From contig LDOQ01000071.1 in the NCBI GenBank assembly GCA_001887945.1, positions 62,001 to 126,000 of the forward strand: 64,000 nt of DNA. The letters are read 5' to 3'. The notes beneath the pieces are model-generated. The model made no database searches, had not been told where the DNA came from, and worked only from the letters and a program-made list of their open reading frames with translations. This stretch comes from Spraguea lophii. Its lineage: Eukaryota; Microsporidia; Spragueidae. Below, piece by piece: positions 4,112 through 41,985 of this stretch; the stretch's first letter is position 1; each line of letters begins with the position of its first letter. The position numbers and the translations under genes are program-made.

Positions 4112-4613
4112 AGTCCCGCCTGGCCCAGTGGTCGTGGGGTGGTAACCAAACCCCAAGCCTGGCGGGTTCGAATCCCTCATCCAGAAAAATTTTCAAAAAC
4201 AAAAAAATAATAATAATAAATACAGAAGAGAAGAAAAAGGTTGTTGAGTGGGTGAGGTTTCGATAGCGCAGCATAGCTGTGCCTTGTATGACGGCCCCGC
4301 TACTAGATTAAAGTAGTGTTCAGCTGATGTAGTTGCAATCCCTGTATTGATTTGTGACTCGGCCAATACTATGCAACGAAAGAGGCTGGGAATTCCTTAA
4401 GAGCTGGAAGTGGGGGCGGCGACGCGCACCAGACGCAAAATCCTAACACTCTGGAGCATAAGGTAAGATGAGATTAATGCATATCTGTAGCGAAACCAGT
4501 TAGTACAAGCCTAGATTCGCTCGAGGAACCGAAGGTCACGGACCATGGTAGGCCGCAACCGGGCAGGGAACTTTGATAAATAAAAGTTTCATTCGTAAAA
4601 AAATAAAAAAAAA
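4112..4613 (+). mobile_element. tRNA-derived SINE, copy A (full length)
   Basis: About 480 bp plus an A-rich tail, flanked by the 15-bp duplication at 4096-4110 and 4614-4628. The head (about 75 bp) is tRNA-like, with a Pol III A box (TGGCCCAGTGG at 4121-4131) and a perfect B box (GGTTCGAATCC, 4165-4175). It is degenerate as a tRNA: the arm GGGGT/ACCCC closes a nine-base loop and the T stem is mispaired. A GC-richer body follows (start gttgttgagtgggtgagg, end gataaataaaagtttcatt), then A-rich tail. No protein is encoded. Retroposition would need an unlinked LINE reverse transcriptase, and none is visible here. Confidence 0.88.
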
Positions 4614-4628
4614 ATAAGATTAATAAGA

Positions 4629-5504
4629 CAATAAATAGTTTTATATCATTAGGAGTTTAATATTTTTTTTGTAAATTTTATATAACTGAGTTTATTCTTT
4701 AAATATATTAACTTAATAATATTTTATGTTTTAGCGTATTATAAATATTAGTTATATTATTATTTTAATTTTAATGTAATTCTAATAATATTATAAGTGT
4801 AATTATAATGTGAATGTTCTATAAATTAAATATTTCCTTTTTATGTACTAGTTTTTTTTGTTTATCTTTTTTTATTTTGGAATCTTATAACATATTAAAA
4901 TATGTTTGGTTAAATATTTCTCTTGTTTAATACACATTTCTGGTCAATAATGATGTTTTTAAAAGCTTTGTGAGACGATTTTTTTTGATTAGTAATAATA
5001 TATATATATTTTAATAATTTGCAAAATTGGATTTTTCCTGTGAAGATTACAAATTAAAATATTGTTATATAATTCTGTTTATATAACAAATATAAAAAAG
5101 AGAAATTGATATGCAACTGAATATATTTCTAAACGATGTTAAATCTTATGTTATAATCATACCAACTTACTACTGCTTTACTTAAGTAATGAAACCATGC
5201 TATAAAATAAAAATATATTTTATCGTATTTTTATATGTTTACCTCACTTTTCATAAATTTTTGATTTTCTGGTTTGAAGATTTTTAGAATGAAGGATTTG
5301 AATTATCTAGTTCGGGAATTTTGGTATAACCGTTATCATTAAATTATAGTCACTTAAAAATAGAGGATATAAAAGGATGAATTATTGTATTAATGATTTT
5401 TATATGTCCAGATATCTTATGACTGGTTTACCAATTACGAGAGTAGAAAAATTAATTAGAAGATAAAATAATTTATTTAAATTTCCTTTATTATATATTT
5501 AATC
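4629..5504. other. Intergenic, nothing recognised
   Basis: AT-rich DNA with stop codons in all frames between SINE A and the Merlin relic. No start signal followed by an open frame was found. Confidence 0.5.
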
Positions 5505-6517
5505 TAGAATAAATTTATTCGGTAAAAGGGCTACTGGGATGGGAACAAAAAAGTATATTATTAAAAGAGATTGAGAAGTAAAAAAAACTTTAATTTAGTT
5601 TAAATAGAGCTAATAAATCCGAAATGGGACCTTTTATTTATTGATAGTCTAAAAATTCCTTAATAAAATTACTGATATTTTTATGTTTATTAATCTCTTT
5701 TGATTTTAAGTATTTCCATTTGTTTTTAATTCTTTAAGTATTCATTTCAGACTTATTTGGATCAACAAAGAATTTTTTTTGTGATTAACAATCACGTGCT
5801 TATGTGTTGATTTTTTTAAAAACCATACCCTTTCCCAATAATCTGTAATTAAGATTGTTTTTAATCTTACATTCACAAATACGATTTTTTGGAGTTTATC
5901 AGAACTTCTCTTTATTATTATTGCAAATAATATATCACCATTTTCTCTATATACACCACATTCAACCCAAATTTATTTTGTTATTTTACCCTATTATATT
6001 TCCTCTTAACGACAAAAGATTCATCTATTTCAACTATATGATACCTACTTTTAATTGATTTTTTAAAGATATTAGATAGTCTCTACTAATATATACTTTT
6101 TATTTTTTTAACTGTTTCCTTGTTTAAACCTGTTTCGTTAATTATTTTTTTTAATTTTGTTTTTTTAGAAAATTCATAAATTATTTCTAAAATTTTACTC
6201 ATAGGTATACGTAAATCATAAAAAAAAAGAATTTATTTTAAGTGGATAACGTTTCTTAATGCATAAATTTTTCTTATAATACAAATAGGACGCTTTAAAC
6301 GTATTGCCAACGTAAAGTATTTAACAAATTTCTACATTTATAACATTTTTTATTTTTTAGAATTATACCTTCTTCTCGTAAAAACGTAATGAAAGATGAA
6401 GTATTTCGGCTTAGTTGTTTTAAACTATCTCTGTTTTTAATTATCATTTTTTCCATAAGACTTTTAATAATATACTTTTTTGTTCCCATCCCAGTAACCT
6501 TTTTACCATTTATTCTA
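5505..6517 (-). mobile_element. Merlin (ISXO2-type) DNA transposon, decayed
   Basis: Inverted termini at 5505-5566 and 6461-6517 share the run ctactgggatgggaacaaaa, with a t for c in the right copy. Between them, on the minus strand, lie fragments of an ISXO2-type transposase in shifting frames: the N-terminal zinc stretch (CYKCRN) near 6330-6350, the first catalytic region (VEIDES then KRKYNR) near 5990-6045, the second (ILITDYW) near 5845, and NHKKNF...VDP near 5760. Frameshifts and stops separate them, so it cannot move on its own. The termini extend into the N-terminal coding region. Confidence 0.8.
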
Positions 6518-6528
6518 AACATTATCAT
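5640..6528 (-). pseudogene. Merlin transposase pseudogene 1
   Basis: The longest intact piece is the N-terminal 77 codons (6295-6528), with FLREEGI followed by a CxxC pair, the usual ISXO2-type transposase opening. Downstream pieces hold the first Asp (EIDES), the second Asp (TDYW) and the NHxxNFxxP stretch, then a final helix (IKNKWKYLK), in at least three frames. Order and spacing fit one ancestral DDE transposase of about 280-300 residues. Confidence 0.78.
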
Positions 6529-6721
6529 AAATTGTAATTTTTATCCGATAATAATGTTATTGAAAATAATAATAGATATCATCAATAAGGGGCCATTGGT
6601 AATTATATATATTAAATATCATATATCGATAGTGAATCCAACACATATAATTTTATAAAATTGAAAATATTTTTTTTTGATCTTTTTGATTTTTTATAAT
6701 TTTAAAATTCATAACCCCACG

Positions 6722-7945
6722 ATGAGAATCGCTAGAATATTTTATTTGACCTTAAATGTTTTATTGGTATCAAATAGATATTACATTAAAAGTAGTGGTT
6801 TAATGCTGGATAAGACAAATATGACTATTGGCACCAAAGCAGTATTTAATAGAAGATCGGAAGGAATTCAATTTGTTCTAGTTGAAAAGACTAAAAAATG
6901 GAGGGTTGCTAATGAAAAAGTTGCTTCTTGTGATTTGGAATTGACTAGTTTTGTTGTACAACAAGAAACAGAGTCGTTAACAGTTAAAGGAATGGTGTGC
7001 AAAGTAACCACAAAAAGATACCAAGTTAGCAAGGCCAGTTCACCTTATGCTCAGTATTATTATGCATATTTTACTTTGAAAGACAAACATATATTAGAAG
7101 ATCACGATTTTTTTAAAATAGCTGTTATTCCCAAAAATGCTAATATTTATTCTTTCGGTGAAAACCAAATTGATACAAACGAAGTAGTTAAAATAAATAA
7201 TCGTATATTGGAGTTAAAAGAAAAAAATAATACTATAATACTTCAAAATAATACTTGTTATTTAAAAATCTCAAAATCAGATAAGATATTTGATAAAATA
7301 TCGATTATGGTTCAAATAAATTCTAATTTAGTGTTGCAGAAGAAAGAGGATATGACTTCCGGAGGCAACCAAGACAATTATCGCGATTCACCCACATTGC
7401 ATTTAATAGAAAAGTTACTTCAAGATGAATCAAAGGAAACCGAAATTTCTGATGAACAACCAACTGAAATTAAAGGTCATGGCAACGAAAAGGCAACTGA
7501 AAATTCTGATATACAACAGACCCTCAAAAAGTCTGATGAGCAACCAACTGAAATTAAAGGTCATGACAACGAAAAGGCAACTGAAAATTCTGATATACAA
7601 CAGACCCTCAAAAAGTCTGATGAGCAACCAACTGAAATTAAAGGTCATGACAACGAAAAGGCAACTGAAAAATCTGATAATAGGGACATACAAAAGTCTG
7701 ATGAACAATCAAATGAAACTGAAAATTCTGATAACGAAGAGGCAACTGAAAAATCTGATAATAGGGACATACAAAAGTCTGATGAACAATCAAATGAAAC
7801 TGAAAATTCTGTAAACGAAGAGACAACTGAAAATTCAGACAATGGGAACATAAAAGAAACAAAGAACAAAAACGGATTTAAAAGCATCATATCTCTTATG
7901 TCGTACCCGCAAATTGTTTTGTCAATAATATTGATTTTTTCTTAA
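6722..7945 (+). CDS. Secreted, repeat-rich acidic protein
   Basis: 407 residues from the ATG after ataaccccacg; this CCCC signal is why I start here and not 45 bp upstream. A signal peptide-like N-terminus (MRIARIFYLTLNVLLVSNRY) is followed by about 200 residues of folded-looking sequence with a few Cys. Then comes an acidic repeat region: an 84-bp unit (repeated SDEQPTEIKGHDNEK) and an 81-bp unit (SDNRDIQKSDEQ type). The C-terminus is hydrophobic (SYPQIVLSIILIFS), suggesting a GPI anchor or membrane tail. It looks like a spore-wall or surface protein, but I recognise no family. Confidence 0.72.
   Translation: MRIARIFYLTLNVLLVSNRYYIKSSGLMLDKTNMTIGTKAVFNRRSEGIQFVLVEKTKKWRVANEKVASCDLELTSFVVQQETESLTVKGMVCKVTTKRYQVSKASSPYAQYYYAYFTLKDKHILEDHDFFKIAVIPKNANIYSFGENQIDTNEVVKINNRILELKEKNNTIILQNNTCYLKISKSDKIFDKISIMVQINSNLVLQKKEDMTSGGNQDNYRDSPTLHLIEKLLQDESKETEISDEQPTEIKGHGNEKATENSDIQQTLKKSDEQPTEIKGHDNEKATENSDIQQTLKKSDEQPTEIKGHDNEKATEKSDNRDIQKSDEQSNETENSDNEEATEKSDNRDIQKSDEQSNETENSVNEETTENSDNGNIKETKNKNGFKSIISLMSYPQIVLSIILIFS
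7448..7830 (+). repeat. Coding minisatellite, 84-bp and 81-bp units
   Basis: The 84-bp unit repeats about 2.5 times (tctgatgag at 7532 and 7616), then an 81-bp unit derived from it repeats twice (aatctgataa at 7671 and 7752). All unit lengths are multiples of three, so the frame is kept. Other frames on both strands also stay open across the array. Confidence 0.9.
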
Positions 7946-8144
7946 ATAAAAAAGATTGATATTTATTTTTTTAAAAATTAAAATAATTTATAAGTTTGAC
8001 TCTAAACCATAAACTTAATTTAAATTCTTGGGGATCTTTTCATAAACCTTATTGAAAGTTGTTGAAGAGCGAATAATATTTATTTATAATTTTTTTTCTA
8101 TATTCAAAGATCCTATGAATTACATTTAAGTACTTAATAATTGA

Positions 8145-8629
8145 TGTCCCGTTTGGCCCAATGGTCATGGTGTGGTAACCAAATCCCAAGCCTGGCGGGT
8201 TCGAATCCCTCATCCAGAAGAATTTCCAAAAAAAAAAATAATAAACGCAGCAGAGAAGAAAAAAGTTGTTGAGTGGGTGAGGTTTCGATAACGCGCATAG
8301 CTGTGCCTTGTATGACGGCCAGCTACTAGATTAAAGTAGTGTTTAGCTGATGTAGTTGTAATCCCTGTATTGATTTGTGACTCGGCCAATACTATGCAAC
8401 GGAAAAGACTGTGAATCCCTTAAAAGCTGGGAGAGGGGCGGCGACGTGCACCAGATGCAAAATCCTAACATTCTGGAGCATAAGGTAAGATGAGATTAAT
8501 GCATATGTGTAGCAAAACCAGTTAGTACAAGCTTAAATTCGCTCGAGGAACCGAAGGTCACGGACCATGGTAGGCCGCAACCGGGCAGGGAACTTTGTTA
8601 AATAAAAGTCCATTAGTAAAAAAAAAATA
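8145..8629 (+). mobile_element. tRNA-derived SINE, copy B (older)
   Basis: Full-length copy in the same arrangement as copy A but with many substitutions: head tgtcccgtttggcccaatgg, B box intact (GGTTCGAATCC), spacer A-rich, body with scattered changes, tail aaataaaagtccattagt then A-run to about 8629. I see no clear target-site duplication, consistent with greater age. It sits between the repeat protein and the SAM synthetase gene, 3' to both. Confidence 0.85.
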
Positions 8630-8803
8630 ATAATGTAATAATGTTATAAAAATTTTATTAATAATTTAATGAACGAAATAAATTTATCTTATGAATATTA
8701 ATATAAAATTAATTTGAAACAAAACGAACAGATACACACATTGGGAAATTAATATTCCTTTGAGTGGTTTATTAATATTTAAAAATCCATTAAAATTTAT
8801 TTT

Positions 8804-9973
8804 TTATCTTTCGATTGTCTTATCGAATTCGAGTTTTTTAGATTTCTCCCATGAGAATTCATTTCTTCCAAAATGTCCAAATACTGCAGTTTTTTTGTAT
8901 ATGGGTTTATTAAGTTCTAAACTCTTGATAATATCCCCTGGATTCAGTTTAAAATTCTTTCTGATAATTTCTATGATTTCTGCATCTAAAAGTTTAGATG
9001 TATTATATGTATTAATGTAAATTGATACGGGCTCTGGTATTCCTATAGCATAAGATATTTGTATAAGGGCTCTTTTACATATTTTACTGTCTACTAAACT
9101 TTTAGCTATCCATCGTGCTGCGTATGCCCCCGATCTATCCACCTTAGATGGGTCTTTACCAGAAAAACATCCACCACCATGACATCCAAAACCACCATAT
9201 GTATCTACTATTATTTTTCTGCCTGTTAAACCACAGTCTGCCTGTGGTCCGCCTTTGACAAATTTTCCAGATGGTAAAATATGATATTTTGTATTTATCA
9301 AATATTCTACGGGTATAACTTTTTTAATGATTTTTTCCATAATTGTTGTGCGTATTTCATCAAGACTTATATGTTCATCATGTTGTGCAGAAACCACAAT
9401 GGTATCTACTCTAAATGGTGTCAATATACCATTTATTTCGTCATATTCCACGGTCACTTGTGTTTTAGCATCTGGTCTAAGCCATTTTATTTGTTCCGAT
9501 CTTCTCATTTCTGATAATTTCATAATAAGTTTATGACTTAACATCAATGATAACGGCATTCTCTCTTCTGTTTCATCTGTCGCATACCCAAACATCATCC
9601 CTTGATCTCCTGCGCCCATATTTTCATCTAAACCACCCACTGCTCTATTTATCTCATCACTCTGTTTATTTACGTTTACTATGATTGTAGATTCTTCTAT
9701 GTTAAATCCATTTGTTTTATTATAACCAATTTCAGCAATTGTATCTTTAGCTATTTTTTCTATATTGATATGTACATCAGAATTATAATTAACCTCTCCA
9801 CATATTAATAGTAAATTTGGAGATATTGTTGCTTCAATTGCAACTTTAGCATACGGATCTATCTCTAAATAAGCATCTAATATCGCATCGGATATTTGAT
9901 CACATATTTTATCCGGATGACCTTCACTAACGGATTCAGAAGTAAATAGATATTTAAGACACATGGGTTTCAT
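8804..9973 (-). CDS. S-adenosylmethionine synthetase
   Basis: Makes S-adenosylmethionine from methionine and ATP in the cytosol. At 389 residues it is full length. Visible signatures: FTSESVSEGHPDKICDQ at the N-terminus (ATP and methionine site), GAGDQGMMFGYA (the hexapeptide region), and GGFGCHGGGCFSGKDPSKVD, the phosphate-binding loop. The start ATG is preceded by CCCATCATAA and a T-rich stretch, as elsewhere in the window. A second in-frame Met lies three codons in. The loop has GCFSGKDPSK where most homologues have GAFSGKDPTK, probably neutral. Confidence 0.95.
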   Translation of the reverse strand: MKPMCLKYLFTSESVSEGHPDKICDQISDAILDAYLEIDPYAKVAIEATISPNLLLICGEVNYNSDVHINIEKIAKDTIAEIGYNKTNGFNIEESTIIVNVNKQSDEINRAVGGLDENMGAGDQGMMFGYATDETEERMPLSLMLSHKLIMKLSEMRRSEQIKWLRPDAKTQVTVEYDEINGILTPFRVDTIVVSAQHDEHISLDEIRTTIMEKIIKKVIPVEYLINTKYHILPSGKFVKGGPQADCGLTGRKIIVDTYGGFGCHGGGCFSGKDPSKVDRSGAYAARWIAKSLVDSKICKRALIQISYAIGIPEPVSIYINTYNTSKLLDAEIIEIIRKNFKLNPGDIIKSLELNKPIYKKTAVFGHFGRNEFSWEKSKKLEFDKTIER

Positions 9974-10116
9974 TTATGATGGGAAAAAATTTTTTTAAAA
10001 AAATGATATCTAAAAAAAATATTTATTTATAGAAAATATTTATTTTTTCATTGAAATATTAAATGATTTATGAATATAACACAATATATTATTTTTAAAA
10101 TAATTTTTAATAACTA

Positions 10117-12294
10117 TTATTTTCCATTTATATGGCTATCACTATTATGTTCATCTTTATTTGTTACTTTTATTCTTAACGATTTTTTTGATACAACTGT
10201 TGGCTCAGATTCTATATCGGATTCCATCATTAAATTTTTTGTTAATTGAATTTTTGTACTTGTGGTTTTAATTATATTATCAGAAGAATCGCTATCATAT
10301 TCCATTACCCTTTGTATGTTTAATGGATGTTGGAAATTATTTTCTTGTTCCGTTGTTGCATGATTAAATGCATTTTGTTGGATGATACTTGGATTTATTC
10401 CAGTTTTAAGAGATTCTTGGGGTACGTAGATAAGCGAAGGTTTTATGACAAAATGTGGTTGGAATGGAAGAGGGTTTGATAATGGAGATTCATTTTTATC
10501 CTGTTTTTCATTTTTCTTTTTATCAATATTTTCAATCTTTTCTTTTTTTTGATTGTTATTTTTCAGTATTTCTTTTTTCTTCTCCTCTTTTTCTAATTTC
10601 TTCTTCTTTTTTTCTTTTGCTTTTGCTTCCTTTCTTTTTTTCTTTCCTTCTTCTATTATTTCTTTTCTTGTTTTTTTCTTATTACTCATTTTAGAATCAT
10701 TTTTTGATGCTTTTACATTATTCGTTTCTAATTTATTATTTTCTTTATCATCTCTGATTAATACCATAGGTGGTTGAAAACTTGGCCCGTCTTTCTTATT
10801 ATCATCTTTATCGATGTTATTTTGTTTTGATTCTTTTTTATCATCAGAATGTTTAGAAGCATTACCAAAATTTAATAACATTGGTAATATTGAGTTATTT
10901 ATCTCTTTTTTATTTTTATGTTCGTTATCTTCTACTTGTATAAAACTATTCATTATATCAGATTCTTTATTTTCCTTATTTTCTATTTGTTCTTGAGTAT
11001 CTCCAAGAAAAAATAATTCGGGGAGTGTGTTATTTTTCGCAGTTTTTTCTTCTTGGGGAATATCTTTCGTTGTGAATATAGAATTCATTGGTGGAATGTC
11101 TATTTGATCTTCATAATTAAATTTATCAGAATTCTTATTTTCTGGTGTTTTTAATTTTTTAGAATCCGAGAATAAAGGAAACGATGTGGTTTTGGAATTT
11201 TGTGCTCTTTTCTTTTCTTGATTTTTTTTATCACCGTTAACATTGTTTAACAAATTAGTCTTTTCACCTTTATTTTTATCTAAAGACGTCTTTTTATTTT
11301 CATTCTCAGAAAATTTTAAAAATATATTGGATGGATTTTCTACCTCCTTTTCAAATTTATTAAGTTTGTTTGAATCTTTAAAAAGTCTATTTTCCCTTCG
11401 ATTTTTTTCTTTTCTGTTCATAAGTTCTAAAGCACTAGGAAAAATAAAAGTTTTTTCTTTCTTCTCAGCAATATTTGCTTTTCTTCTTTTATCTTCTTCA
11501 TCAAATACATTCTTAGATTTACTAGCTTTCTTTTTATTTTTGAATATAAATTTATTATTTGGAATTGATTTTGCGTCTTCTTTCTTTTTATCTCCTCCAG
11601 TAATTATAATATTTGATTTCGTTTCGTCATCATTTTTATCTTTCCTCGTATCAAATATAACATTGTTATTATCTTTAATGAGTTTTGGATCATTGTATTC
11701 AATATCCCCATTAGGTTGAGGTGTAAATTCAATTTCCATTTTATCTTTATCATTTGGTAATGCGCCCATAAAAGAAGTCATCATTGTTAATAAATTATTA
11801 AAATGAATTAAATCAAACATTTTCTTAAACAACTCCTCAGGTGGCTCAACATTCTTTTTTTCATTTTCATCCTTAAGTTTATTTTCAGTCACAATATTAA
11901 AATCCATTTCTGGATTATAAACGCGCTCATTATCAGAAATCAATCCGGTAAACTCATCTCTTGGCTTCTGCGCATTATAATTATGTGCAAAATCATTATC
12001 ATACTCATGAGAATAACTTGATTTAAGAGAATCCAATAACCCTTGCTCACTAAAATCCATGTTGTCTCCAACTTTCTCCCTACGTTTTTTTTCCTTTTCC
12101 TCTTCTTTTTCTTTTACCTTATTTATCAAAGCACTCTCCTTATTGTCCATTTTATCAGATAATTTTTGTATTCCTTCATTTACTTCAATAAGGTTACTTT
12201 TACCTTTAGTACCAATATCTATGAATGCAAACACTCCAATAATAGCAATTACACATATACCCATAGTAATATAACTAATTCTTTCTTCTTTCAT
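10117..12294 (-). CDS. Large Lys/Asn/Glu-rich membrane-anchored protein
   Basis: 725 residues from the ATG at 12294, followed by MKEERISYITMGICVIAIIG, a single signal-anchor helix at about residues 8-27. The rest is highly charged and low in complexity, with runs of KKK/EKK, an unusual KEKKKKKLEKEEKKK stretch and a few Pro-rich spots (SNPLPFQPHF). No domain is recognised. No CCC triplet lies close to this ATG; alternatives are the Met 10 codons downstream (12264) or one 33 bp upstream. Possibly an ER or spore-structural protein. Confidence 0.6.
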   Translation of the reverse strand: MKEERISYITMGICVIAIIGVFAFIDIGTKGKSNLIEVNEGIQKLSDKMDNKESALINKVKEKEEEKEKKRREKVGDNMDFSEQGLLDSLKSSYSHEYDNDFAHNYNAQKPRDEFTGLISDNERVYNPEMDFNIVTENKLKDENEKKNVEPPEELFKKMFDLIHFNNLLTMMTSFMGALPNDKDKMEIEFTPQPNGDIEYNDPKLIKDNNNVIFDTRKDKNDDETKSNIIITGGDKKKEDAKSIPNNKFIFKNKKKASKSKNVFDEEDKRRKANIAEKKEKTFIFPSALELMNRKEKNRRENRLFKDSNKLNKFEKEVENPSNIFLKFSENENKKTSLDKNKGEKTNLLNNVNGDKKNQEKKRAQNSKTTSFPLFSDSKKLKTPENKNSDKFNYEDQIDIPPMNSIFTTKDIPQEEKTAKNNTLPELFFLGDTQEQIENKENKESDIMNSFIQVEDNEHKNKKEINNSILPMLLNFGNASKHSDDKKESKQNNIDKDDNKKDGPSFQPPMVLIRDDKENNKLETNNVKASKNDSKMSNKKKTRKEIIEEGKKKRKEAKAKEKKKKKLEKEEKKKEILKNNNQKKEKIENIDKKKNEKQDKNESPLSNPLPFQPHFVIKPSLIYVPQESLKTGINPSIIQQNAFNHATTEQENNFQHPLNIQRVMEYDSDSSDNIIKTTSTKIQLTKNLMMESDIESEPTVVSKKSLRIKVTNKDEHNSDSHINGK

Positions 12295-13685: not shown

Positions 13686-13816
13686 AAAGATTATTTAATA
13701 AAAAATATCTTTTTTCTTAAACAATTATTAAAAAATAATTTATTTAATCTCATATCAGACATTAACTTTTCAGATAATTTTATTACGATTAAAAAATTAT
13801 TTATAAAATAATCCTT

Positions 13817-22310: not shown

Positions 22311-22386
22311 ATAATAGAAGTTTTAGTTCATATACATTTTATTAAAATTTTAACATTTTTTTACAGTGTTGCTTTCGTTGAAGCAG

Positions 22387-22401
22387 TGCATACACATTAT
22401 T
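22387..22401 (+). repeat. Left target-site duplication of SINE copy C
   Basis: tgcatacacattatt recurs exactly at 22901-22915, on the other side of the element. A 15-bp exact duplication shows recent retroposition. Confidence 0.92.
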
Positions 22402-22900
22402 TTTTTTTTATTTTTTTACGAATGAAACTTTTATTTATCAAAGCTTCCTGGCCGGTTGCGGCCTACCATGGTCTGTGACCTTCGGTTCCTCGAGCGACAT
22501 TAAACTTGTACTAACTGGTTTCGCTACAGATATGCATTAATCTCATCTTACCTTATGCTCCAGAGTGTTAGGATTTTGCGTATGGTGCGCGTCGCCGCCC
22601 CCACTTCCAGCTCTTAAGGAATTCCCAGCCTCTTTCGTTGCATAGTATTGGCCGAGTCACAAATCAATACAGGGATTGCAACTACATCAGCTAAACACTA
22701 CTTTAATCTAGTAGCGGGGCCGTCATACAAGGCACAGCTATGCTGCGCTATCGAAACCTCACCCACTCAACAACCTTTTTCTCTCTTCTCCGTTTATTAT
22801 TATTCTTTTTTTGTTTTGAAAATTTTTCTGGATGAGGGATTCGAACCCGCCAGGCTTGGGGTTTGGTTACCACCCCACGACCACTGGGCCAGGCGGGACT
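22402..22900 (-). mobile_element. tRNA-derived SINE, copy C (young, exact TSD)
   Basis: Full-length copy in reverse orientation: T-run (A tail), body, then the tRNA-like head ending in agtcccgcc on the minus strand. Exact 15-bp target-site duplications flank it. It closely matches copies A, D and E in the body and the Pol III boxes are intact. It was inserted into the older Merlin element, giving a relative date. Confidence 0.93.
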
Positions 22901-23174
22901 TGCATACACATTATTATAATTATTTTTCTTCCGTGAATATTGTCTTAAAATACTCGAATGTTCTTTCTTTTTTGTTCGTCATCACAAGGGTAAAAAAAAA
23001 TTAATTTCTTTCAAAAGGGTAAATCGTAGGTGTCTGAGTTCCTTTAGGAAATGTAGAATATAAATATAAAAAAATTTTAAATGTAATCGAAAGATTTAAT
23101 TATAATTTCATAATTGGATAATAAGTAACTAGGGTTTTTATCGAGTTAAACTATATTATAATATTTATAAAATA

Positions 23175-27135: not shown

Positions 27136-28010
27136 TAATGGGTGAAAAAACAAATAAATAATATATCTTATATTCTCCAAAGAATATTTAAATATTTTTT
27201 TAAAATGATACAATTCTATTTTAGTTTTAAAAATATTTTATTTGAATATATCTTTATTATTTAAAGAATAATTATAAAAGTAATACATAATCTTATATTC
27301 CTTTTTTTCGTTTTTTTAAATAAAACTTTTATATATAAAGTTTCCTTGTTGGTTACAACCTATTATGGTTATATACTTTTTTCAACCTTATATTACTGTA
27401 TTATTTAAAATAAATAATTTTCTTTCTATGTAATAATCTAATAGAAGAATAAAAATATAAATTATCATATAAAATACAAGTCTAACACATTTGTTTTAGA
27501 ACACAATGTATTTGTTATATATTTTATTAATATAGGATAATAATCAATATAACTTATTGATGTAAATACTATTAAATTTTAGAATGATAAAGATTCTTTC
27601 TTTAAGAGAAGTAAACTTTATTAGTTGGTTGAAAATAAATACATTAAATTTATACAAAAAAGATATTTAACTAAAAGTTAGATGTTTTAACAATAGACTT
27701 CGAGTTTTAAGACTTTAATATTTATAATGAAATAATAGTTAAATTAGGAAAGAAAATATAATCATTCTAATGGATCTCATCTATATTACACAGAAATGTT
27801 GTTAAAGTAGTTTAAATGTTGGAATATAATAAACAATGGAAGATTCTATCCTCCTCTGCTGGAAAATAAAAATAATAAATTAGAACATATCAATTAGTTT
27901 TATAAGATAATAAATAAGATAATACATATTCTCTTTGTAAAATATTATATTTTTATTATAAAAACTAAATGTAATATACGATGAATATAAAAATATATGT
28001 TAGATACCCT
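27136..28010. other. Divergent intergenic with a SINE remnant
   Basis: About 0.9 kb, AT-rich. It holds a 5'-truncated SINE fragment at 27302-27375 and the ACCCT before the CstF-64-like ATG. An ATG at 27981 is in frame with that gene but lacks the signal. Confidence 0.5.
27302..27375 (-). mobile_element. 5'-truncated, decayed SINE fragment
   Basis: T-run, then taaaacttttatatataaag, tttccttgttggtt and acctattatggt match the 3' 70 bp of the SINE on the minus strand with mostly G/C to A/T changes. The rest of the element is missing, as expected for incomplete reverse transcription. Confidence 0.65.
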
Positions 28011-28631: not shown

Positions 28632-28637
28632 ACTTTA

Positions 28638-29033: not shown

Positions 29034-29063
29034 TATGGGCTTAAAAAAATAAAAATAAAAAAA

Positions 29064-29669: not shown

Positions 29670-30430
29670 ATGTCAGATTGGAAATTTGATTATAAAGCAG
29701 ATTGTAATAATTCTAAAAAACTATTATTTGAGAATTCAAATTATGATGCTACAATATGTTATGTAATTTTAAACAGTACAAAACGTGCAATGACAACGTA
29801 TAGGACTATTAATATAAAACTTACAATAGAATTTTTGAAAAAGAAAAAAATATATTTAAGAAATATGATATTTTTATTATATTTCTATTTTTATATTATG
29901 AAATACCAAAAGTTATAGATACTATATTCAACATGAAAAAATATATAAATTTATTAAGTTTATCACCTGTAATATATGTATATACATCATTTGATAGTTT
30001 AAACTATTCAATAAAACAATCTACATACACTATAGGAAATCATCAAGAATCTGAACATTTATTTAAATAAAATATAATTTAAAAAAAAGAACATCTATCG
30101 TTTGAATACATAAAATAAAAAGAAGATATGGAACACGGAAAAGATTATTAATTTTAATAATAATTTAAAAAATCAAGTTAAAAATAAACATTTATTTTAT
30201 ACAAATAATTTTAAAAAAACATTGTATTTATTTAATAGTAATGTTACAGAATGGTCATCACAGCAAATAAAAAAATCCGAATTTTCTAAATATGAAAAAC
30301 CATTACCAAGCGTTTAAATTTATATGAAGAGAATAAATTTTAGTTACATATGATGCAGATGATACATTTCTTTCAGGTGTTTTAGATAGAATTTCCCATG
30401 ATTTTAATGCTAAAGATATATTAGCTTTAA

Positions 30431-30441
30431 CTAATAGAGAT
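30431..30441 (+). repeat. Half of a swapped target-site duplication (SINE D 5' side)
   Basis: ctaatagagat directly precedes SINE D. Its partner is not after D but in inverted orientation at 31171-31181, next to the tail of SINE E. Confidence 0.88.
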
Positions 30442-30937
30442 AGTCCCGCCTGGCCCAGTGGTCGTGGGGTGGTAACCAAACCCCAAGCCTGGCGGGTTCG
30501 AATCCCTCATCCAGAAAAATTTTCAAAACAAAAAAAAAAAAAAGAATAATAATAAACGGAGAAGAGAAGAAAAAGGTTGTTGAGTGGGTGAGGTTTCGAT
30601 AGTGCAGCATAGCTGTGCCTTGTATGACGGCCCCGCTACTGGATTAAAGTAGTGTTTAGCTGATGTAGTTGCAATCCCTGTATTGATTTGTGACTCGGCC
30701 AATACTATGCAACGAAAGAGGCTGGGAATTCCTTAAGAGCTGGAAGTGGGGGCGGCGACGCGCACCAGACGCAAAATCCTAACACTCTGGAGCATAAGGT
30801 AAGATGAGATTAATGCATATCTGTAGCGAAACCAGTTAGTACAAGTTTAATGTCGCTCGAGGAACCGAAGGTCACAGACCATGGTAGGCCGCAACCGGCC
30901 AGGAAGCTTTGATAAATAAAAGTTTCATTGATAAAAA
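30442..30937 (+). mobile_element. tRNA-derived SINE, copy D
   Basis: Full-length copy with intact A box (TGGCCCAGTGG) and B box (GGTTCGAATCC), long A-rich spacer, body and tail. It is very close to copies A, C and E. The sequence after its tail (aggaatataataaaa, 30938-30952) is the duplication belonging to SINE E, so the copy is recombinant: its 5' part belongs to one insertion and its 3' part to another. Confidence 0.92.
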
Positions 30938-31181
30938 AGGAATATAATAAAACCAAATATCACAATAAAAAAATATTTAATACCATCTTTTAAAAATTAT
31001 AAGGAAAATTTTCTATAAAAAGAACATTAAAAAAATCCAAACTGTTTTATTTCATTATGTTAAATTCTTTTATTAATAATTTTAATATTAAAATAACAAA
31101 TATACCACATTTTACTGCTAAAAATATCTTCGTATATCTCAAGATTTTCAATAATTTTCTTTTTTATCCAATCTCTATTAG
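30938..31181. other. Segment inverted by SINE-SINE recombination
   Basis: Flanked by inverted SINEs D and E. Both target-site duplications are split across the segment: ctaatagagat at 30431-30441 and, inverted, at 31171-31181; aggaatataataaaa at 30938-30952 and, inverted, at 31687-31701. Flipping the segment restores each duplication to the two sides of one SINE and restores a reading frame of the dead gene. Confidence 0.82.
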
Positions 31182-31686
31182 TTTTTTTTTTTTTTACGAA
31201 TGAAACTTTTATTTATCAAAGCTTCCTGGCCGGTTGCGGCCTACCATGGTCTGAGACCTTCGGTTCCTCGAGCGAAATTAAACTTGTACTAACTGGTTTC
31301 GCTACAGATATGCATTAATCTCATCTTACCTTATGCTCCAGAGTGTTAGGATTTTGCGTCTGGTGCGCGTCGCCGCCCCCACTTCCAGCTCTTAAGGAAT
31401 TCCCAGCCTCTTTCGTTGCATAGTATTGGCCGAGTCACAAATCAATACAGGGATTGCAACTACATCAGCTAAACACTACTTTAATCCAGTAGCGGGGCCG
31501 TCATACAAGGCACAGCTATGCTGCACTATCGAAACCTCACCCACTCAACAACCTTTTTCTTCTCTTCTCCGTTTATTATTATTCTTTTTTTTTTTTTTGT
31601 TTTGAAAATTTTTCTGGATGAGGGATTCGAACCCGCCAGGCTTGGGGTTTGGTTACCACCCCACGACCACTGGGCCAGACGGGACT
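31182..31686 (-). mobile_element. tRNA-derived SINE, copy E (inverted partner of D)
   Basis: Full-length reverse-orientation copy with a long T-run (A tail) at its left and the tRNA-like head at its right (gacgggact). It is nearly identical to copy D in reverse, including the same 'ttaaagtagtgtttagctg' variant. The right flank ttttattatattcct (31687-31701) is the reverse complement of the sequence after D. Confidence 0.92.
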
Positions 31687-31885
31687 TTTTATTATATTCC
31701 TATCGATTAAAATAACAAATATATTTTTATTATCAATTACAACAGATATAATTTTATTTTATAATATTTATCACAATTAATCTCTAAATGAATATAACAC
31801 TATCAAGGTTTAAAGATAGTTAACTTCTTAAAAATGCAGATCAAATATAAAATCCGACGATAAAAAATATAAATGTTTTAAAAGT

Positions 31886-34384: not shown

Positions 34385-35030
34385 TTAAAATATTTGGATA
34401 AAAGTGTTTATCAGTATATTTTTAAATGGAATAAAATAGATCGATAGTAAGTTTAAAACATTTATTTTATTATCATTAACATTTTGATGCAATATAAATT
34501 CTTGAAACTTTTTTTTGAATAGTAAATAGATACATATTGTTTTATTTGAATTCTTTTTTATTTTTAAATATATATTTTTTATCTTTTGCAATAAGTTCTC
34601 TATGTTTCGTATATGGATTTCCGTATTTTTTAAGCTTATAAAATATATTTTTTAATTCACAGTATCATATCAATTCATTTGTAATTATAATTAAATCCTT
34701 ATTAATTTTTTTTCTTTGCATATTTTTGTCGATTTTTTTAATATTCATATATCTGTTGTGTATAAAAAAAAGTTTGAATTCTGTTAAATTTACAAAATTT
34801 ATAAATTGAAGTGTTATTTATAAAATATATTCTATCATTACATCTACACTCAAATACATTCGGTTTAGAATTGGCTTTTAATTTCATTTTTCTTTTGAAT
34901 TTAAAACATTTTATTTTTTTGTAGAACTTCCTAATTAATAGGATAAAAGATTGATGTATATTATCATTATAAAGATTATATAAAGTTGTTTTATCATTAA
35001 TAGTTAAAATCCGATTATGTTCCATTCTAA
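34385..35030 (-). pseudogene. Merlin transposase pseudogene 3 (N-terminal part)
   Basis: The 95-codon frame at 34738-35025 has the ISXO2-type N-terminal layout: a helical lead, a decayed CxxC (KCFKFKRKMKLK), FECRC, then SIYKFCKFNRIQ in the place of the usual SI...S.F helix and a terminal Tyr-rich helix. The frame at 34385-34591 may be a further piece but is not recognisable. No termini were found. Confidence 0.5.
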
Positions 35031-35288
35031 ATGGATACTGATAGACGCTTTTATATCAAATATTTCTTTTAAGAAGAAAAAACAAAAAATAAATTAAAAC
35101 CAATAGAATTATATAGAATGAAAATAATTTATTTATAAAAAAATGTATGCACTCATACTATAAAAACAAAATTAAAATGCTTTTAACTCTCGTGTGCACT
35201 TAAGGGTAAAAAATATTTTTTTTTAAAAAGATAAAAATAGTTAGAATATTAAATGTTTTCAAAAGCAAATAACAATGATATAATGTAT

Positions 35289-36283
35289 TGGTAAGGTGTG
35301 CAAATAAAGACCATACAAAGAAGAGGTTAAAGAAGAAATGAAAAGGATAAAACAAATAAAATAATCATTTAATACATCTTAAACCGTTTAAGAGCTCACG
35401 AAAAAGAAAATTTTTTGATCTTGATTAAAAATAGAATAAGATTTGAGTTATTAATCCATTTATATTATGTATATGTTGGTTTTCTAGATATTTTTTTAAA
35501 TATCTCCACCCAATTTCAATGTTTTGAATGTGTATTTTTTTGTTTTGTGGGTGTACGAAGTTCTCTATGTGATTAATTGTTCCGTGTATATAATCCGGGT
35601 TTGATAACATTGAATAGTCTTTATAATCATTTATTATTATTTTTGTTCCTACATTAACGTTGTTTTTGATTATTTTTTCAATGGCTTCTGCATTTCTTTT
35701 ATTTTCAATATGATAAAATACTTCTTTCATGTTCATAGAAATGCACCCAATAACTTAAAATTGTTTTAGAGATATTCCAGTATTATAGTTAGTTTTTGAG
35801 ACTACTGTCTCGTCGATTTCTATTATCTTATCACATCCACCTATTTTATTTTTTCTATTTTTGATTAACACAGGTTTTAATTTATTTATTATAAAATTTA
35901 TGACTCTATAATTCAATTTTGTTTCTCCTATAATACTTTTATGTGTCGATTTTTTACATATTTCTAATAATACTTGAAATATTTCGTAGATATAAATTTT
36001 AAAACCATCAAAAATATTATTTTTTCTTATTGATACGGATTTTCTCTTGTATGCTAGGATAGAACATCTCCATGGAAATAGTTCGATTCGCTCACCGCGT
36101 TCAATTGACATAATGTTTTTACATTTTGGACATAACCTTTTGGATGAAATTAGTTCATGACTCTGAAGCTTACAAAAAAGCCCATACGTTTTTTTAGATA
36201 GTTAATATATTTTTATTTATATTTTTTTGTTGTAACCATTTGAGATTGTCTCTTTGTGGGGTCTTTATTTGTACACCTTACCA
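35289..36283 (-). mobile_element. Merlin element, about 1 kb, with terminal inverted repeats
   Basis: Terminal inverted repeats of about 34 bp at 35289-35322 and 36250-36283 (outer end tggtaaggtgtRcaaataaag, few mismatches). One minus-strand transposase frame fills the interior. I cannot see a matching 8-9 bp target duplication (flanks taatgtat and aaattttc). It is the best-preserved DNA transposon in the window. Confidence 0.85.
35425..36180 (-). pseudogene. Merlin transposase, complete except for one in-frame stop
   Basis: The open frame runs from about 36180 to 35425 in one phase, interrupted by a single TAA at 35755-35757. Order of parts: zinc pair LCPKCKN; WRCSILAYKR and SVSIRKNNIFDGF; first Asp in KIIEIDETVVS; then the stop; ENKRNAEAIEKIIKNNV; second Asp in IIINDYKDY; GTINHIENFVHP; final Glu in QNIEIGWRYLKKYL. 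All three DDE residues and the HxENFV motif are present. The stop sits where homologues have the Q-x-W-V stretch. Length about 250 residues. Confidence 0.82.
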
Positions 36284-36490
36284 AAATTTTCATTAAAAAC
36301 TATACGTTGGTTTTATAATTATATCAATATTTATTTATATAAGCAGTTATCAAAATAAATAATTATATTTACTTCTATATCAAATATGATTTAGAAATAA
36401 ATTATTGGCTATACTTTACCGTAGAATTACTCAATTAGAACATAGCATATTGATTACAGAATATAAAAAATTATCAAACGTACAATAAAT

Positions 36491-37475
36491 ATTGGTAAAC
36501 GTTGCTTTGGGGACCCCCCTTCTTTTAAAGTTTATATAAAACATACCCATTATCTACAGAATTGGAATTGTATGAGCATTCTAATCCATCGTATAAAGTT
36601 TTTAATTTCATTCCAATTTAGGAGCAATTTATAAAATTAGAAGATGTAAAAAGTCTAAAAAAGACATGCATTTAAAGAATAAAAAGTATCAGATAGATTA
36701 ATATGGATTTGTAAAGCCAAAAGATACAATAAAGCATCTATTTCAATACGATATGGTTCTCTATTTTCAGATATACGAACTCCACTAATAAAGTATAATT
36801 TTAATAATATATGAATGATCCATGAGAACAGATAAAGGATATTAAATATGAATTATAAATTGGATATAAACTAATTAACAAAGTTTTAGATCCTGTAAAA
36901 ATTGTTATTAATAAAACTGAATATGAAAAAGGAGGTGATAAAGATATAATAGAAGTTGAGGAAAGTTGATTCAGTAAAAGCAAACATAATGTTAGACGAT
37001 GGCTTAAACAATCATGGTGCATTGGTGGAATACCACGAACTTCGAAACGATAGTTTTTTGAAATATTACATACAAGAAACCGTGAAACCATCGAAAATAT
37101 AATGTTCAAAAAATATAAATGAAGATTCTACGATAATCACAGATGATTGGAGAAGTTACTTTAATTTCAAAAATATAGGATTTAAACTCTTTGGGTAAAT
37201 CATAAAATAAATTTTGTGTCCCCGAAAATAAAAAGATGCGTACTCAGAACATTGAAAACATGTGGTATAAACCAATGAATTATGTTAAAACATGATGAAC
37301 TGATGTTAAAAATAACCATGCAAGACATATTTCGGATTTTAATTTCTTAGACCTCAAATGAACCCGTTCGTGAAAATTTTACACGATTTTAAAGGAATGT
37401 AAAACAAATAAACACTAATTAAAAAATTTTTTATCTATATAAACTTAAAAAAGGGTCCAAGGCAATTTTTACCCA
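36491..37475 (+). mobile_element. Merlin element, decayed, with inverted termini
   Basis: Imperfect inverted termini at about 36491-36538 and 37431-37475 share ggtaaa, ttgc, ttgg and aagtttatata blocks. The length, about 985 bp, matches the neighbouring element, but the termini differ, so it is a separate family. A plus-strand transposase relic fills the interior. Confidence 0.7.
36590..37380 (+). pseudogene. Merlin transposase pseudogene 5
   Basis: Plus-strand pieces in order: KRYNKASISIRYGSLFSD (basic/SI-rich helix), KGGDKDIIEVEES (first catalytic position with Glu-Val-Glu in place of Glu-Ile-Asp), HNVRRWLKQSWCIGGI, RNRETIENIMFKKY, STIITDDWRSY (second Asp), VNHKINFV and a final QNIENMW. 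Stops and at least two frameshifts separate them. The minus-strand open frame here is a shadow. Confidence 0.78.
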
Positions 37476-37947
37476 AATTTCTTTTATAAATCATATACTT
37501 TGAACAAATTAATAATTAAAATGTATCAGATATTGATAGTCAAACATATTGAATTGACAAACAAACAATATTTCAATTATTTTGTTCAAATAATCGTGGT
37601 TCCGGTGTAAACCATATTTTACTTAACAATATTTTAATATTTTATATATCATAAATAAAAATTATAACTAGAAACGCAGGGAAATCTTTTTATTAAATAC
37701 GTACTCAATAGAATAGAATGTGATAACGGTAAAAATTGTTTTTAGATAATATTCTAAAAGCTAAAACGGATCCTATCTATGTACATTTAAATAAATACGG
37801 CTTGATTTGTTTCCCACATTCATGTTATATTATTTTTTTCTAATTTAAATAATCCGAATAACTGTTAATAAAAGTATCTTCTTTAAATTTTATTTATCAT
37901 ATTTTAACCCGTATACTTATAGGACATTTCATAACTTTTAAGAGAGA
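37476..37947. other. Intergenic, nothing recognised
   Basis: AT-rich DNA between a Merlin element and SINE F with no open frame, boxes or repeats that I recognise. Confidence 0.45.
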
Positions 37948-38404
37948 TTTTTTTAATGAAACCTTTATTAATAAAAGTTTTCTTGTCAACTGCAACATGT
38001 TGTGGTCTATGACATTTGGTTCCTAAAGCACATCTAACCTTGTATTAACTGATCTCGCTACATATCTGCATTAACCTCTTCTTACTTTATGTTCCAAAAT
38101 GTTAAGGTTTTGTGCATGGTATAATCATCGTTTTATTATCTTTAATAAGATTCCTAACCTCTTTTTGGCATAATATTGATCGAGTCACAAATTAATATAG
38201 AGGTTTAAATTACACTAATTAAACACGATTTTAATCTAGTAATAAGTCATTGTACAAGGCATAACCAATGTTACATTTTCGAACATCCACCCTATTATTT
38301 TTTTTCTTTTATTCCTTCTTTTTTTAAGAATCTTCTGGACGGTAGGTTCAAATCCATCGGGCTTGAAATTTGGGTACCACTCCACAACCACCCAGTTAAA
38401 CGGG
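37948..38404 (-). mobile_element. tRNA-derived SINE, copy F (old)
   Basis: Full length in reverse orientation but heavily mutated: T-run and aatgaaacctttattaataa, then ggtctatgacatttggttcc, cattaacctcttcttacttt, and a head with ggttcaaatcc in place of the usual B-box core. Most differences from the young copies are G/C to A/T. No target duplication visible. Confidence 0.8.
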
Positions 38405-38652
38405 CTAATCTAGGCATTAATAAAATATCTTTCTTTATATATCTACATTAAAAATTTATAATTAATTAAATAAAAATTCGAATGTTATAATTTCTCTTTT
38501 TTACTCTTATAATATCCATCGTTTATAATCTATTTCTCCCTTTTCAATCGCTGTTTTTGAAATCTCTCTAAAAGTTTATGAAATATTTGTATTACAATTT
38601 TTTTCAGAATCAATATGTGATTGTATAAATTCCATTATAAATATTTTTAAAT

Positions 38653-38835
38653 GTTTTTAAAAAAATATTTTAACTATTATCAAAACATTTCAGCCAATTG
38701 AGATTCGTTGTGGTATGAGATAATTGGTTCCTAAAAAGTAAAAAAAAATTGTACCAACTAACTTCAATATATATAAATTATTCTTGCCTTAACTTATGTA
38801 TTAAATGTTAGAATTTTACATATAATAAGTATATT
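38653..38835 (-). mobile_element. Very old SINE fragment
   Basis: Recognisable only by order of blocks: caaaacatttcagccaattg, gtggtatgagata, ttggttcctaaa, gtaccaacta, ttatgtattaaatgttaga, matching the 3' third of the SINE on the minus strand. Much of it has drifted to A and T. Confidence 0.55.
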
Positions 38836-38943
38836 ATCAATTTTGATATGATAATATTTCTAAATTTTTTAAAAAAAATTTCCATATGGGAATGTTTTAA
38901 CATAACTAAATTTTCTTCTACTTTTTAAATAATTTTTAATCGT

Positions 38944-40205
38944 TTATTTAGAAAATATTTCTTTCTCCATATCATGACTAGTAAAACGCTTATCAAACAA
39001 CATATCAAATATTTTTTTTGCTTTTTCAAGATTAAGATCTTTAATATGTATATCAGGCCATTTCCGTATGTCATCAATCTTATTAGTCATATTTGTACTG
39101 ATGTCGTTTTCATCTTCTTTTGCGGAGTATAAAATCGACATAGCATCCAATAAATTTTTGAGTAAGTTATTTTTAAAAAAATCCGATCTGATGTATTTAA
39201 GAGGAATTCCTAATATTTCACTTAAATTTATATTTTCTTGGCTAGTATAAAAATATTTTAAAAAATGTTTCATTTTTATAAAAGTCTTATGTAGCATAAT
39301 AAGAGAAAAAGAATAAAACCCTCGAGATTTTACACGTCCTTCTACACCTATATGTAGAATAATGTTGAAAAGATTATCCAACCATTGGAGACTGTCGGTA
39401 AATTCCTCTTTAATATTCTCGTGGAAAATATCGAAGAGATGCGGAACCATCTGTATTTGTGTAATTATATTAAGATATAACAATTCATAACCAATTATCC
39501 TTGTATATAATTGTGTAGTCTCTACCTTTTGCATTATAATAGACAAAGGTAAAAGATATTCTTTTAAAACAATAATAAAATCTTCTCGTCTTTTTAACTT
39601 TCTATAGTATATCATATGAGTAAAATGTTCTTTTGTTATAAGACAATTATCAGGTAATAAATTCGTACGATAGAAATACATTTTCATTCTAAAATATATT
39701 TCCCTAACCTTGGAGTTTAATATTGTATGGGATTTTGCAAAATAAGCTATAAGATTACAATATAATTCTTTAGTGGTTGTTGAATTGTGTATACACAATT
39801 CGAACTCTTTTGAAATATGCTTTGAGAAACTTATATGATCTTTATATTTACTATACAATCTCTGGTCACTTGGTATATCCAGGAAATCGGGCAGTAAATA
39901 ATCTATATGTAAATTGAATTCCTTATGTTCAATATATATTTCATCATATTTACTGAACCTAATATTTGTTAATGCAATACCATTATTTTCATATAATCCT
40001 ATTATTCTTTCTTATTAAAAGAGGTACAATTTATATAAAACATCCTAATGTTTAAATAAAATAAGAAATAACATAATGTATTACAAAATATTAATGAGAA
40101 TCTAATGGAAAAGTTATCACGATTGTATATTTTATGCTGTATGATTGTATTATTCGGGTTTAAAATATTTGTATAAAAATGGTTTGTCGTGTGTATTGAA
40201 CTCAT
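38944..40205 (-). pseudogene. Secreted-type paralogue (family 2), frame broken near 40005
   Basis: The main frame (38944 up to about 40004) has no in-frame ATG near its left end; a frame-shifted ORF (40002-40205) supplies the N-terminus with a signal-like RFSLIFCNTLCYFLFYLNI. One small indel would join them, so this is a recent pseudogene, a sequencing error or an unrecognised intron. The C-terminal part shares SLIMLHKTFIKMKHFL, then KAKKIFDMLFDKRFTSHDMEKEIF, with the partial gene at the right end of the window. No domain recognised. Confidence 0.6.
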
Positions 40206-40474
40206 AAAGAGGACTATGGAAGGAAATAATGGATATAATCCAGAAATGGAAAGAAATATATTTGTTTCCGGTATACCTTTTTAATAAAATAGGAAACACC
40301 CATTATTTCACTTTTCTAACATCTTTGAAAGTTTCCTCTAAAAAAAATCGAAATAAAAACATAAAATATTATTTAAATTTAATTTTCCATTGTTATTTAC
40401 CTTTTTTGTATTAAAAATTACCCTATTTTATATATATTTATTGTATTCTAAATTTTATTATTAATTAATATAAT

Positions 40475-40971
40475 ATTTTTTTTTTTTTTTTATGAATGAA
40501 ACTTTTATTTATCAAAGCTTCCTGGCCGGTTGCGGCCTACCATGGTCTATGACTTTTAGTTTCTAAAGCACATCTAAACTTGTACTAACTGGTTTCGCTA
40601 TTGTATGCATTAATTTTATCTTACCCTATGCTCCAGAGTGTTGGGGGTTTGCGTACGGTGCACGTAGCCGCCACTCTCCCAGCTTTCTAGAGATTCCCAA
40701 CCTCTTTTTTTGGCGTAGTACTGCCGAATCATAAATGAATACAGGATTGCAACTACATCAGCTGAACACTATTTTAATCTAGTAGCGGACCGTGATACAA
40801 GGCACAGCTATGCTGCGCTATCGAAACCTCACCCACTCAACAACCTTTTTCTTCTCTTCTCCGTTTATTATTATTCTTTTTTTGTTTTGAAAATTTTTTC
40901 TGGATGAGGGATTCGAACCCGCCAGGCTTGGGGTTTGGTTATCACCCCACGACCACTGGGCCAGGCGGGAC
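40475..40971 (-). mobile_element. tRNA-derived SINE, copy G (mosaic)
   Basis: Full-length reverse copy. Its two ends match the A/C/D/E type (cttcctggccggttgcggcc at the tail side; gcacagctatgctgcgctat and the head at the other). Its middle (about 40550-40800) matches copy H: gacttttagtttctaaagca, taccctatgctccagagtgt, gccgccactctcccagcttt. No clear target duplication. Confidence 0.88.
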
Positions 40972-41443
40972 GGTTAAGTTATAAATTATAAAATAATATG
41001 AGAGTAATATATCCATTGTAATATTAACAAATACAATTATAATATCATCATAATCCAAATATTACAGATTATTATAAGTTCCAAATGATTAAAAATTTCT
41101 AACTAAAAATAGTTCATAATATTTTCTTGTAAAAAAGATAAAATCTTTCATAAACCTATTATTATTATTATTTTACGATAATAAAAAATATATAATATAA
41201 TGATATGTTATTAAAGATAAAATAATGTTTTATTTTTAATATATGTCACAATAAAACATTTCATTTACAGAGAAGAAGATTAAAGAAAATAAAAGTATAA
41301 GTAAATATTTAATATAATCTTAAAAAATATTATTTGTATATTAAAAAAACATATAAAGATTATTCAATAATATTTTAATTATTATTTCATTTTAATAAAA
41401 TATATCTTCTACAAATAAAATGATATGTTTCCCTTTTTGTAAA
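40972..41443. other. Spacer between SINE G and tRNA-Ala
   Basis: AT-rich, no gene seen. Upstream of the tRNA there is no obvious TATA-like box beyond the general AT richness. Confidence 0.45.
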
Positions 41444-41515
41444 GGGGTGCTGGCTCAATGGTAGAGCGCCTGCTTTGCACGCAGGAGATTCGGGGTTCGA
41501 TTCCCTGGCACTCCA
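41444..41515 (+). tRNA. tRNA-Ala (TGC anticodon)
   Basis: 72 nt with a normal cloverleaf. Acceptor GGGGTGC pairs with GCACTCC, including the G3:U70 pair that identifies alanine tRNA. A box TGGCTCAATGG, anticodon stem CCTGC/GCAGG around TTTGCAC (anticodon TGC), B box GGTTCGATTCC, discriminator A. No intron, no encoded CCA. It is the only intact tRNA gene in the window. Confidence 0.96.
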
Positions 41516-41517
41516 TA

Positions 41518-41522
41518 TTTTT
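41518..41522 (+). terminator. Pol III terminator of tRNA-Ala
   Basis: TTTTT two bases after the tRNA 3' end, the usual RNA polymerase III stop. SINE copy H begins immediately after it. Confidence 0.8.
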
Positions 41523-41523
41523 A

Positions 41524-41985
41524 TGGCCCAGTGATCGTGGGGTAGTAACCAAATCCCAAGGTTGATGGATTCGAATCCTTCATCCAGAAGAATTTCCAAA
41601 AAAAATAATAATAAAACAGAAAAGAAGAGAAGAAAAAGGTTGCTGAGTGGGTGAGGGTTCGATAGCGCAACATTAGTTGTGTCTTGTATCACGGTCCGCT
41701 ACTAGATTAAAATAGTGTTCAGCTGATGTAGTTGCAATCCTGTATTCATTTATGATTCGGCAGTACTACGCCAAAAAAAGAGGTTGGGAATCTCTAGAAA
41801 GCTGGGAGAGTGGCGGCTACGTGCACCGTACGCAAACCCCCAACACTCTGGAGCATAGGGTAAGATAAAATTAATGCATACAATAGCGAAACCAGTTAGT
41901 ACAAGTTTAGATGTGCTTTAGAAACTAAAAGTCATAGACCACGGTAAGCCAAGAAATTTTGATAAATAAAAGTTCATTAAAAAAA
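41524..41985 (+). mobile_element. tRNA-derived SINE, copy H (head-truncated, second subfamily)
   Basis: Starts at tggcccagtgatcg, lacking the first bases of the head, one base after the tRNA-Ala terminator. The B-box core is altered (ggattcgaatcc). The body carries the subfamily-2 variants shared with the middle of copy G: aggttgggaatctctagaaa, gagtggcggctacgtgcacc, gatgtgctttagaaacta. Tail aaataaaagttcattaaaaa. Near the 3' end it lacks the ccgcaaccgggcaggg segment. Confidence 0.87.

Follow-up and report, generated by a model that had tools for sequence, protein, structure and literature searches.

A SINE family with a Pol III-type head and a LINE-related 3' end in a microsporidian genome

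A dispersed repeat of about 490 bp in a microsporidian genome is very probably a SINE, a non-autonomous retrotransposon with a type-2 Pol III promoter and a LINE-related 3' end that would be moved by LINE-driven target-primed reverse transcription. The repeat is short (SINEs range from about 100 to 600 bp), non-coding and dispersed, carries A and B boxes and an A tail, is flanked by target-site duplications of LINE length, and shares its genome with a LINE that has a related 3' end. The window analysed here is a stretch of 64,000 nucleotides (bases 62001–126000 of contig C45) from a genome of 5,273,041 bases (5.27 Mb) in 73 contigs; its GC content is 23.8%, and that of the whole contig is 22.6%.

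Anatomy of the repeat and its copies in the window

The SINE has a GC content of 46% compared with 22.6% in contig C45. In copy 30442 and other young copies, it opens with a head (positions 1–75, 63% GC) in which TGGCCCAGTGG and GGTTCGAATCC were located by sequence match; from the Pol III consensus, we take these to be the A box and the B box, respectively. In young copies the head is followed by an A-rich linker (positions 75–130, 18% GC) and by a body that reaches about position 400 (47% GC). A LINE-like 3' part comes next, closing with ATAAATAAAAGTTTCATTCGT and then an A tail. An earlier note on this DNA had described a head with A and B boxes, a GC-richer body, an A tail and no protein, and young copies agree with it in each respect, the longest stop-free stretch in copy 30442 being 69 codons. 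In addition, all four young copies examined in the window have TTTT at position 79, a possible Pol III stop; as the tRNA-Ala and tRNA-Arg genes are each followed by a run of five T's, the four T's of the SINE may perhaps be read through.

All eight copies reported in the window lie at their coordinates, on both strands, and all eight were recovered when 174 kb of C45 were searched with a profile (E ≤ 1e-5). Four are young, with identities to the young majority of 97% (4112–4613, forward, with an A tail), 99% (22402–22900, reverse) and 98% (30442–30937, forward, and 31182–31686, reverse, the left and right partners of an inversion described below). Two are middle-aged (8145–8629, forward, 90%; 40475–40971, reverse, 89%), one is old (37948–38404, reverse, 67%), and one is older with a shortened head (41524–41985, forward, 80%) and begins 8 bp behind the tRNA-Ala gene at 41444–41515. 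In copy 30442, the A box lies at 30451–30461 and the B box at 30495–30505 (both forward, by the consensus), while the LINE-like block common with the LINE 3' UTR lies at 30846–30905 on the same strand. The start of copy 41524 falls in or beside the T-run of the tRNA-Ala gene (41444–41524). No window ORF of at least 120 aa is overlapped by a SINE copy; a mechanical 101-aa ORF (41387–41692) extends across the tRNA-Ala gene into copy 41524. The three additional fragments that had been claimed, with no coordinates given, were not recovered as such: BLAST found one weak tail-like piece at 27311–27369 (E 1.6e-5), which is absent from the profile-search matches.

The A and B boxes are in line with the description of the repeat as tRNA-derived; ARAGORN (on the window, where tRNA-Ala is the sole call) and Rfam (on one young and one old copy) call no tRNA in the head. 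For the young copy, no Rfam family came near its gathering score, a T-arm match of 13 nt to the tmRNA model being all that was returned (E 0.088). A tRNA-like pattern search of the genome matched eight places, one of which, C72:84347–84402, overlaps an Rfam tRNA (C72:84334–84414) and is only a lead to a parent tRNA. By eye, the D arm of the oldest heads is presumably like that of a Val or Glu tRNA. The putative tRNA origin rests on the A and B boxes and is a weaker point of the classification.

The LINE and the shared 3' block

The earlier note had also predicted that the 3' end of the SINE would be matched by that of a LINE, and such a LINE was found, with a 3' block of about 60 bp common to both elements at up to 87% identity. 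In a database of 13 loci, SINE positions 409–463 (55 bp) matched the 3' UTR of the LINE copy on C63 at 87% (E 2.9e-14), with the shared block extending to about 60 bp; in a whole-genome search with the LINE as query, SINE copies were matched at 84% (E 4e-9). Behind the shared block, the SINE goes straight to ATAAATAAAA.TTTC..., a sequence similar to the bases that immediately precede the A tail of the LINE; in the LINE, about 95 bp that the SINE lacks separate these bases from the block. This terminal resemblance of about 25 bp scores 0–9 in 12 LINE copies (the C21 tail, cut at an incorrect A run, scored low), compared with a 99th percentile of 6 and a maximum of 13 in 1,160 AT-rich controls; because it is weak when taken alone, the link between SINE and LINE rests on the block of about 60 bp together with the position of both blocks. 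The shared block has no match in viral contigs. A two-hairpin fold of the same layout was predicted for one SINE block (z −0.57, no better than shuffles) and one LINE block (z −2.96), and a common fold over 27 sequences was unsupported by RNAalifold, which gave a different helix of four pairs (−0.28 kcal/mol); retention of a fold is not expected in decayed copies.

A search of the genome for reverse transcriptases (RT) gave nine matches. The matches on C73 and at C48:16630 lie in frames with retroviral-type protease domains, the two on C2 are telomerase, and that on C44 has RVT_1 only, the C56 and C5 matches being left out of the classification. The telomerase reverse transcriptase gene on C2 (about 65–69 kb; loci L013/L016) is a long open frame that contains both Telomerase_RBD and RVT_1. 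Loci L009 and L010 are RT frames with retroviral-type protease domains, the RT region of L010 being broken by stops, and L011 has RVT_1 only. A non-LTR element with a 479-aa frame lies at the start of C72. This frame matches LINE-1 ORF2 structures at E about 1e-9 (four of the five matched PDB sequences are LINE-1 ORF2 proteins), and its homologues are database proteins with endonuclease and RT domains, several of which carry Exo_endo_phos_2; against the Pfam endonuclease and RT models, the frame itself stays below the cut-offs (Exo_endo_phos_2, E 0.0019), and a search of the genome with the Exo_endo_phos_2 model returned nothing.

Decayed or short LINE pieces were found on C48, C1 and C21. Among the 40 candidates that were scored out of 109, the LINE 3' part lies on C21, C63 (both ends), C11, C61, C27, C67, C34, C8, C6, C5, C1, C2 and C4. 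In the decayed C1 copy, an RT piece of the C72 type is followed some 200 bp on by the LINE 3' part. One stretch of C61 has RT-like coding sequence, a C-terminal frame with a CPFC...H...C finger motif and the 3' block, with the frames in different phase; Pfam support is weak (RVT_1 on C61, E 0.26; zf-RVT on C63, E 0.11), and no homologue of the C61 RT piece came up at E ≤ 0.001. Since several LINE copies run into contig ends, the assembly breaks in the LINE, which is known here from incomplete copies. Under a rule that allows fuzzy starts, five of seven 5'-truncated LINE copies have exact duplications of 10–19 bp, one has 8 bp and one has none, compared with a maximum of 8 bp in 42 mispairings. 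The start of C21 (locus L032, 1–3560) carries the apparent remains of two LINE 3' parts, a LINE-like 5' region, a 68-bp LINE RT piece 99% identical to C72, and GGTTAGGTTAGGTTAGGG; it is perhaps a subtelomeric LINE array beside telomere-like repeats. Farther on, at about 3650–3890, lies a stretch that to the eye looks like a fragment of an IS1595/Merlin-type transposase.

The LINE is the likely partner of the SINE, and the functional dependence of one on the other is putative. Pol III would transcribe the SINE from its A and B boxes; the LINE protein would recognize the shared 3' end, nick the target and reverse-transcribe the SINE RNA from its A tail; and staggered cuts would give rise to the target duplications. 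The LINE-like 3' end and the missing stretch of about 95 bp would also fit an internally deleted, non-coding LINE derivative, as opposed to a SINE driven by a Pol III promoter of its own. Such an origin is highly improbable, because SINE positions 1 to about 400 match no 5' or coding piece of the partial LINE sequence on C72 and C21, and the head has both Pol III boxes.

Insertion, age and recombination

Movement of the SINE by target-primed reverse transcription is further supported by its flanks. The 15-bp exact target duplications reported for copies 4112 and 22402 were reproduced: that of copy 4112, ATAAGATTAATAAGA, stands at 4096–4110 on the 5' side and is repeated at 4614–4628 on the 3' side, and that of copy 22402 stands at 22387–22401 on the A-tail side and is repeated at 22901–22915 on the head side. 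Under a strict rule, by which a duplication must be exact, span at least 9 bp and abut both the head and the last base of the A tail, 12 of 25 SINE copies tested have duplications, all of 12–16 bp; ten of these copies lie outside the window, nine of them on other contigs, so that the duplications extend well beyond it. The set leans towards young copies, as seven of the 25 are best matches to a young query (loci L002–L008, eight copies). In the control with mispaired flanks, a duplication was found in 2 of 600 cases, both being the pair 30442/31182 taken reciprocally. A looser test, in which L006 and L034 are the same copy, placed 10 of 25 above the 99% level of its control. The strict rule scores zero for two visible duplications, at L005 (13 bp) and at the second L004 copy (14 bp, one mismatch). 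The 13 copies without a strict duplication comprise seven older ones (67–92%), the two of the swapped pair, two that are scored by the looser test only, and the young copies L033 (an offset match of 7 bp) and L037 (none), for which neither test gave a convincing duplication. In addition, near the start of C11 a filled site has a paralogous stretch on C63 that is empty and aligns straight across with one copy of the duplication, a single case that supports insertion.

Confinement of the copies to the window, which would have counted against the earlier note, was not seen: a 41-base body pattern, which with up to three mismatches detects young copies, gave 127 matches genome-wide (56 forward and 71 reverse) and none in the control. 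A profile built from 24 copies gave 28 matches of all ages in 174 kb of C45, some neighbouring matches possibly being pieces of one copy, and none in reversed sequence. These amount to 9,748 bp, or 5.6% of bases, a proportion not to be extrapolated as such, because C45 holds at least 7 of the 127 pattern matches in 3.5% of the genome. Contigs C3, C19, C35, C46 and C48 (at 117–157) and C63 and C11 (position 1) open at a common point of a SINE or LINE copy, and many contigs end within these repeats. The assembly breaks in the SINE and LINE repeats, and the copy counts are therefore probably low.

Sixteen young copies are 97.3–99.8% identical to their majority, and this near-identity is the basis for viewing the family as active or recently active; judged by copy identity, recent activity is probable. 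Among the 22 copies on C45 with at least 150 aligned bases, six are at 95% or more, four at 80–95% and twelve below 75%, which suggests one old and one recent wave of copying. In nine old copies, change is mainly C>T (0.34 per site) and G>A (0.28), compared with 0.08 for T>C and 0.06 for A>G. RIP-like mutation was considered as the cause and rejected, as C>T before A reaches only 0.235 against 0.295–0.425 before other bases.

A family of structural RNA genes in many copies, tRNA-like or of another ncRNA, that had spread by segmental duplication would share the A and B boxes, the GC-rich body and the many near-identical copies, and the earlier note had named a structural RNA family without A tails as what would refute it. 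It is scarcely credible here: young copies are A-tailed and lie between exact duplications with a near-zero control, an empty site exists, C>T and G>A account for most of the decay in old copies, and there is no significant Rfam family match. A short, MITE-like DNA transposon moved by cut and paste is exceedingly improbable, as the dispersed, short, non-coding nature of the repeat and the DNA-transposon-like remnant seen by eye on C21 stand against variable duplications of 12–16 bp, an A tail at one end only, a 3' end homologous to that of a LINE, and the absence from copy 30442 of a terminal inverted repeat (none of five short internal inverted pairs joins both ends).

The SINE has also served as a site of recombination. 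Copies 30442 and 31182 lie 244 bp apart in opposite orientation; the 13 bp at 30429–30441 are the reverse complement of 31171–31183, and the 15 bp at 30938–30952 are the reverse complement of 31687–31701. Because the flanking duplications are swapped between the two copies, the segment between them (30938–31181) is read as inverted by recombination, and the simplest reading of 30429–31701 would be two ordinary insertions, after which the two copies recombined and the middle segment was flipped. At least one inverted SINE pair has thus recombined in this genome.

The host genome and comparison with known systems

Six of eight scanned window ORFs were assigned to common eukaryotic families, namely a cyclin, MCM, the EXS family, a class I tRNA synthetase, an RsmB/F-type methyltransferase and V-ATPase subunit H, while the remaining two had no family match. 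The MCM3 protein is 53–55% identical to the best 10 of 120 matches listed (8000 scored), and the seven named among these ten are all microsporidian (Encephalitozoon, Ordospora and Astathelohania). By this protein comparison, the host is a microsporidian, as the earlier note had stated, without a close relative among those ten matches.

Microsporidia are models of genome reduction, and the smallest microsporidian genomes are generally considered to contain few mobile elements. A SINE that was recently active, its LINE partner and an inversion mediated by the SINE, all in a genome of 5.27 Mb, would represent a LINE/SINE parasite chain at work in a genome-reduced lineage. The SINE provides a way into the study of Pol III transcription and of retrotransposition in microsporidian parasites, its insertions are possible markers for strain typing, and similar families have perhaps been overlooked in the repeat annotation of other AT-rich microsporidia. 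The young SINE and the young LINE have about 46% and 43% GC against about 23% in the genome, old copies have decayed strongly towards AT, and SINE pairs in opposite orientation can invert the DNA that they enclose. It is conceivable, though doubtful, that the pair came into this lineage from a GC-richer genome, perhaps that of an animal host, and is now reshaping the compact genome of a microsporidian.

SINEs of this kind are known from other organisms and little described in microsporidia, so that the host is unusual; the SINE/LINE pair is well supported. Fungal tRNA-related SINEs include Foxy and Mg-SINE. AfuSINE2 of Aspergillus fumigatus is another, with target duplications of 4–14 bp (PMC5063351), and is alike, by description rather than by sequence, in being a SINE with short duplications in a genome of the fungal lineage. 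Compared with these fungal SINEs, the present family has a microsporidian host and a LINE partner found by 3' homology.

Within microsporidia, four non-LTR retrotransposon families have been reported from Anncaliia algerae (PMC4202319) and non-LTR retrotransposon transcripts from Spraguea lophii (PMC3749934), which likewise places LINEs in this group, as compared by description and not by sequence; the word SINE is absent from the main texts of both papers. The repeat table of Nosema bombycis has a 'SINE' row (28,669 bp, 0.18% of the genome), which shares the label, again by description and not by sequence, while beyond this row the main text gives neither the word nor an anatomy or a partner (PMC3614468). 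The view that a SINE is not a standard feature of microsporidia therefore stands in so far as the titles and abstract openings of the papers listed, a scope outside which subscription journals and preprints lie, contain no description of a microsporidian SINE family, and is qualified by the Nosema bombycis row (PMC3614468); no priority is claimed.

Also among the closest known systems are tRNA-related SINEs with LINE-derived 3' ends. Compared with such stringent-type pairs, as described in PMC3747384, about 95 bp of the LINE is missing here behind the shared block and the head was matched to no named tRNA, but the plan is the same, with an A/B-box head, an unrelated body, a tail and target-site duplications (PMC3747384).
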